Positions 18,253 through 18,297 of a stretch of DNA of 36,183 bases are shown in pieces. This stretch comes from a virus. Position 1 is the stretch's first letter. Each line of letters begins with the position of its first letter. The notes beneath the pieces are model-generated. The model did no database searches. It was not told where the DNA came from and was given only the letters and a program-made list of their open reading frames with translations. Location: the IMG/VR virus record IMGVR_UViG_3300034062_001898, positions 1 through 36,183 of that record, one strand, 5' to 3'. Made by a program: the position numbers and the translations under genes.

Positions 18253-18297
18253 CTCATAACCCGAAGGTCGTAGGTTCAAATCCTACCCCCGCTACCA
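18253..18297 (+). other. attP: attP core: 3' half of an initiator-type tRNA-Met (CAU)
   Basis: The 45 bases read as anticodon loop CTCATAA, the 3' anticodon stem CCCGA, variable loop, T-stem GTAGG with loop TTCAAAT and CCTAC, acceptor CCCCGCT, A and CCA. The CCC after the CAU loop is half of the GGG/CCC stem that marks initiator tRNA-fMet. The 5' half of a tRNA is absent: the bases before the loop (GGTACCTT) cannot pair. This is therefore the attachment core that restores a host tRNA on integration, with crossover expected at or in the anticodon loop. Confidence 0.85.

Follow-up and report, generated by a model that had tools for sequence, protein, structure and literature searches.

A phage attachment site that carries the 3' half of an initiator tRNA-fMet gene found in a freshwater gammaproteobacterial genus

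Introduction

Among the integrases that insert elements into tRNA genes, those acting at the anticodon-loop subsite are reportedly the ones that Williams set apart in 2002 as class A. In phage lambda, the tI/sib region is the seat of retroregulation of int. A large collection of related sites is available in Islander, which lists 2083 islands whose sites centre on the anticodon and classifies CAT genes as initiator, elongator or Ile2 (PMC4383910). Sinorhizobium prophages of the phiLM21-like type have also been found to carry tRNA-fMet genes (PMC11476347, PMC12429752). No description of a phage family specific to initiator tRNA was found in the literature searched, coverage of which was partial.

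The window, by which is meant the whole stretch of 36,183 nucleotides analysed here, is a virus record with genes for terminase, portal, capsid and amidase. Its two ends share 127 identical bases, which suits a circular genome of 36,056 bases. A stretch of 45 bases within it would, with a probability of about 0.95, be the core of the phage attP, which the adjoining tyrosine integrase recombines with a host tRNA-fMet(CAU) gene, most likely by exchange in the anticodon loop. The locus resembles the anticodon-loop class in its tyrosine integrase, in a core running from the anticodon loop to CCA and in the regeneration of the tRNA by the element's 3' half, and differs from it in that the target is an initiator tRNA (PMC4383910). 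With the phiLM21-like prophages it shares the association with tRNA-fMet, but theirs are whole extra tRNA genes, and those prophages mostly occupy other tRNA genes (PMC11476347, PMC12429752).

The attP core and its host gene

The sequence CTCATAACCCGAAGGTCGTAGGTTCAAATCCTACCCCCGCTACCA sits exactly at positions 18253-18297 of the + strand and comprises the 3' part of tRNA-fMet(CAU), from the anticodon loop CTCATAA (18253-18259) to CCA. ARAGORN detects no complete tRNA in the window, and the 45 bases are thus a partial tRNA copy. A host tRNA gene has exactly these bases as its 3' part, right to the gene's end, a match far above chance. Of the 34 viral contigs in which the exact 45-mer is present, about 27 are attPs adjoining an integrase 70-100% identical to that of the window. 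In five of the 34 (L004, L007, L014, L031 and L034), ARAGORN finds a whole tRNA-Met(CAT) ending in the 45-mer.

Searching genomes for the core, as the initial annotation had advised, gave an exact match, at the end of an intact initiator tRNA, in 14 of 24 genomes from a single genus of freshwater Gammaproteobacteria, and the window phage's own host presumably belongs there. The 5' and middle part of the tRNA was matched in 17 of the 24, with one copy in each of the 17; the gene is likely to be single-copy, short of proof because metagenome-assembled genomes (MAGs) can collapse copies. The portal protein of the window was not found in the 24 genomes, in a search that had no positive control. 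Through exact alleles of a tRNA gene seen once per assembled genome, many uncultured phages can be tied to this genus.

A related element was likewise to be sought beside the target gene, and one is present in L036, a gammaproteobacterial MAG titled K_Offshore_80m (presumably Lake Tanganyika). The order there is nuoN, a full-length tRNA-fMet that includes the exact core, a phage-type right arm and an integrase 71-72% identical to that of the window, with nuoN, nuoM and nuoL on the host side of the tRNA. The tRNA gene is thus whole after integration of this relative, which is not the window phage itself; no integrated copy of the latter was found, and the attR of L036 is absent from the assembly. 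At least 15 sister genomes have the empty site, in the order nuoN, tRNA-fMet and DEAD-box helicase.

In L036, the element (2961-8524) also has genes for a KAS III-like protein, an acyl-CoA ligase and a TonB receptor beside int, and with this cargo the element looks more like an island than a phage; a related integrase module also moves a cargo island. In another member of the genus, L037 (4371-4630), a related integrase fragment adjoins a site that ends in CCCCCGCTACCA and contains no recognisable tRNA or Rfam RNA.

Identity of the target and position of the crossover

The full host gene consists of TGCGGGGTGGAGCAGTCTGGCAGCTCGTCGGG followed by the core. Read from its sequence, it has no Watson-Crick 1:72 pair (U1/U72) but does have an A11:U24 pair and an anticodon stem with three G:C pairs (29-31:39-41), and the target is therefore an initiator tRNA-fMet gene, as the initial annotation had concluded from the 3' half. 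An elongator tRNA-Met or tRNA-Ile2 gene could be entertained as the target insofar as the ARAGORN call is merely tRNA-Met(CAT), but the full-length match, with U1/U72, A11:U24 and the GGG/CCC anticodon stem, already refutes this alternative, which retains next to no probability.

In an alignment of 22 distinct attPs, every one is identical to the host from precisely C32 onward, where the anticodon loop starts, and none shares the host GGG that precedes the loop. With this boundary, and nothing shared to the left of the loop, the family fits the known anticodon-loop class. The 7-bp loop CTCATAA, which holds the leftmost shared bases, is the most likely place of strand exchange. The earlier proposal that the left edge lies at the anticodon loop thus stands in all 22 attPs, while the crossover there is read from the edge of shared sequence. 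Integration into tRNA-fMet with exchange elsewhere, such as in the T arm, would leave the longer shared stretch merely to restore the tRNA. Yet a T-arm crossover needs no sharing back to C32, and all 22 attPs share from that base; unrelated elements at tRNA-fMet also keep at least the C32 boundary, with L138 as the one exception; and the nearly identical arms of L006 and L052 accompany different T-stem alleles. Exchange outside the anticodon loop is accordingly improbable.

These T-stem alleles number two in the host genus, GTAGG/CCTAC in most genomes and GCAGG/CCTGC in two, and the phage attPs carry the same two. Both sides of the stem have changed together and are always base-paired, a requirement if a functional tRNA is to be made from the phage half. 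The suggestion that the phage copy rebuilds the 3' half of the tRNA is well supported by this pairing in both core alleles of the phage family.

The proposed mechanism draws on the exact identity, the integrated relative, the empty sister sites and the matching alleles. The tyrosine integrase encoded beside attP would recombine the core with the identical stretch of the host tRNA-fMet(CAU) gene, with strand exchange probably in the loop CTCATAA. The host 5' half would then be joined to the phage-borne 3' half, keeping the initiator tRNA whole, so that this essential gene is rebuilt in the same step, and the host's own 3' half would be displaced to the far end of the element.

Integrase, excisionase and the arms of attP

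The integrase gene (18369-19364, - strand; 331 amino acids; PF00589, 4.7e-24) converges on attP, and residues R193, K220, H276, R279 and Y311 of its product are invariant in 20 relatives. Its start is overlapped by the 3' end of a gene for an HTH_17 protein (19241-19561, - strand; PF12728, 5.2e-08), and such a gene immediately precedes int at each of the 22 loci; the protein is likely the excisionase. From the other side, a metallophosphoesterase gene (17131-18144, + strand; phrog_221, 6.4e-25), the last of the rightward genes, is convergent with int. Further left, at 10694-13993, the window encodes a probable tail fibre of 1099 residues, in which segments rich in Gly and Thr are repeated and a Peptidase_S74 chaperone domain lies at the C terminus.

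Candidate arm-type sites of one type are predicted on both sides of the core. Two tandem copies of TGTGCCGT with an 11-bp period occupy the P arm (18150-18168, + strand), and two more with the same period lie in the P' arm beside the int stop codon (18347-18365, + strand); the pattern of both pairs is conserved in relatives. Two IHF-like sites, identified by consensus match only, flank the core: AAATCAGCAACTTGC in the P arm (18213-18227, + strand) and AAATCAGGCACTTACG in the P' arm, 4 bases past CCA (18301-18316, + strand). Both match the consensus WATCAANNNNTTR with one mismatch and are conserved in the alignment of 22 attPs, and IHF may bind at each. The order along that alignment is arm sites, a conserved block, an IHF-like site, the core, an IHF-like site, arm sites and the int stop codon. 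A lambda-type attP has the same succession of arm sites, IHF-like site, core, IHF-like site and arm sites, with int converging on attP and the excisionase gene upstream of int. The present locus differs in the tandem pairing of its predicted arm sites at 11 bp, in its tRNA-gene target and in its putative excisionase, which is of the HTH_17 type.

Among the relatives, the arm sites are of the types TGTGCCGT, TGGGACGT, TGTGTACA and TGTGGGGA/TGTGTACA. In a Mantel test without L150, arm-site type correlates with residues 1-45 of the integrase at r 0.83, and at a partial r of 0.875 when the catalytic part is controlled for (p 0.0002 by permutation; automatic P-arm site extraction was poor for L023 and L028), whereas the correlation with the catalytic part alone is 0.15. 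In these comparisons, arm-site type tracks the N-terminal segment of the integrase and not its catalytic domain. The family may thus represent a natural series of integrases in which one target is kept while arm-site specificity is swapped together with a short N-terminal segment, making the arm-recognition code directly testable. In L030 (5150-5340), the P arm is the same as in the window (18146-18369) and the integrase is 99.7% identical, while the stretch between core and int is different, indicating recombination next to the core.

A structured left arm and a possible int terminator

In every one of the 22 attPs, the core folds better together with its own P arm than with a shuffled one (mean z -4.3). 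The corresponding values are -1.3 for the right arm and -0.1 for a stretch further left, and the left arms of unrelated fMet attPs give values mostly near zero. In 20 of the 22 attPs, the int-sense strand has the more stable fold. At 18186-18195 (+ strand), the window carries GGTAGCGGGG, an exact inverted repeat of the 3' end of the core, CCCCGCTACC (18287-18296, + strand), which consists of the tRNA acceptor strand plus ACC. On the int-sense strand, the segment at 18186-18195 would form the 3' side of a proposed terminator stem, and 4 nucleotides past this stem is a T-run (18177-18181, - strand; AAAAA on the + strand), the A-run being conserved in the 22 attPs.

At 20 of the 22 sites, the int-sense strand is predicted to pair a portion of the tRNA core with the left arm, directly ahead of a T-run. 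In most members, the reverse complement of the core, GGTAGCGGGG, pairs there with CCCCGCTACC from the P arm, and the T-run follows 3-4 nucleotides later. L006 and L008 have a shifted version of the stem, and L147 and L150 have a different stem in the same place, within the P arm. By a fixed rule calling for a GC-rich helix of at least 6 bp that ends 0-4 nucleotides before a T-run, 18 of the 22 attPs score against 1.35 expected, counts whose independence is overstated as the 22 are kin, while none of 20 unrelated fMet attPs does. A standard scan for short-loop terminators found nothing at the attP left arm; it is blind to the proposed stem because the loop, of about 90 nucleotides, is unusual.

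Taken together, the pairing of part of the tRNA core with the left arm has close to an even chance of forming, on the int-sense strand, a terminator or 3'-end stem of the int transcript. The inverted repeats of the P arm might instead be bound as double-stranded DNA by Xis, Int or some other protein and involve no RNA element, a reading that is also quite plausible, at somewhat less than even odds. The P arms of lambda-type attPs contain Xis and Fis sites, and binding sites would suit the empty terminator scan, the shortness of the T-runs in some members and the lack of acceptor pairing in L011, L016 and L047, with L008 borderline. A double-stranded site does not, on the other hand, call for the better fold of the int-sense strand in 20 of 22 attPs, nor for the abundance of helix and T-run in this family and their absence from the unrelated attPs. 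It is also at odds with the stem changes in L003, L045/L048, L147 and L150, which give G-U pairs on the int-sense strand and A-C mismatches on the other.

If the stem is indeed a terminator, integration would separate it from int, and the same pairing would stay at attR. The int transcript would then have a defined 3' end in the free phage only, and int transcripts of the lysogen would extend, in antisense orientation, into the initiator tRNA gene, of which the host apparently has a single copy. This would provide an added way for integration itself to change integrase expression. As with lambda tI/sib, a structured element on the int-sense strand lies across attP from int, and integration would part the two; the difference is that here the tRNA part of the core makes up one strand of the stem, and both termination and RNase III processing are putative.

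Several other accounts of the left arm were rejected. Local alignment of the P arm to the host 5' half was mostly no better than that of shuffled sequence, contrary to descent from a decayed tRNA 5' half. The + strand at 18186-18297 folds as a cloverleaf (z -7.3), but a working tRNA mimic is contradicted by a 10-bp stem that buries the CCA end, by the lack of compensatory change and by the opposite strand, which is more stable in 20 of 22 relatives. As for a terminator of the late operon on the + strand, its stem would have no T-run after it.

Initiator tRNA genes as integration targets

The initial annotation regarded initiator tRNA genes as unusual targets, which overstates the case, since several unrelated tyrosine integrases and large serine recombinases use tRNA-fMet as well. 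The pattern of CCA followed by an IHF-like site also matched numerous unrelated attPs in which the tRNA-fMet 3' half is a different one. Large serine recombinases lie directly at the same tRNA-fMet gene in L007 (207-1810) and L188 (4366-6028), and the gene is a hotspot common to serine and tyrosine integrases. In L188, the recombinase reading frame extends into the tRNA in antisense orientation, and its translation ends in AGFEPATFGL. Six of the unrelated fMet elements (L124, L126, L129, L139, L151 and L157) have an IHF-like AAATCA..GACTTAGC to the right of CCA, inside a hairpin with a T-run, which perhaps acts as a terminator in the integrated element, in place of the one that belonged to the tRNA.
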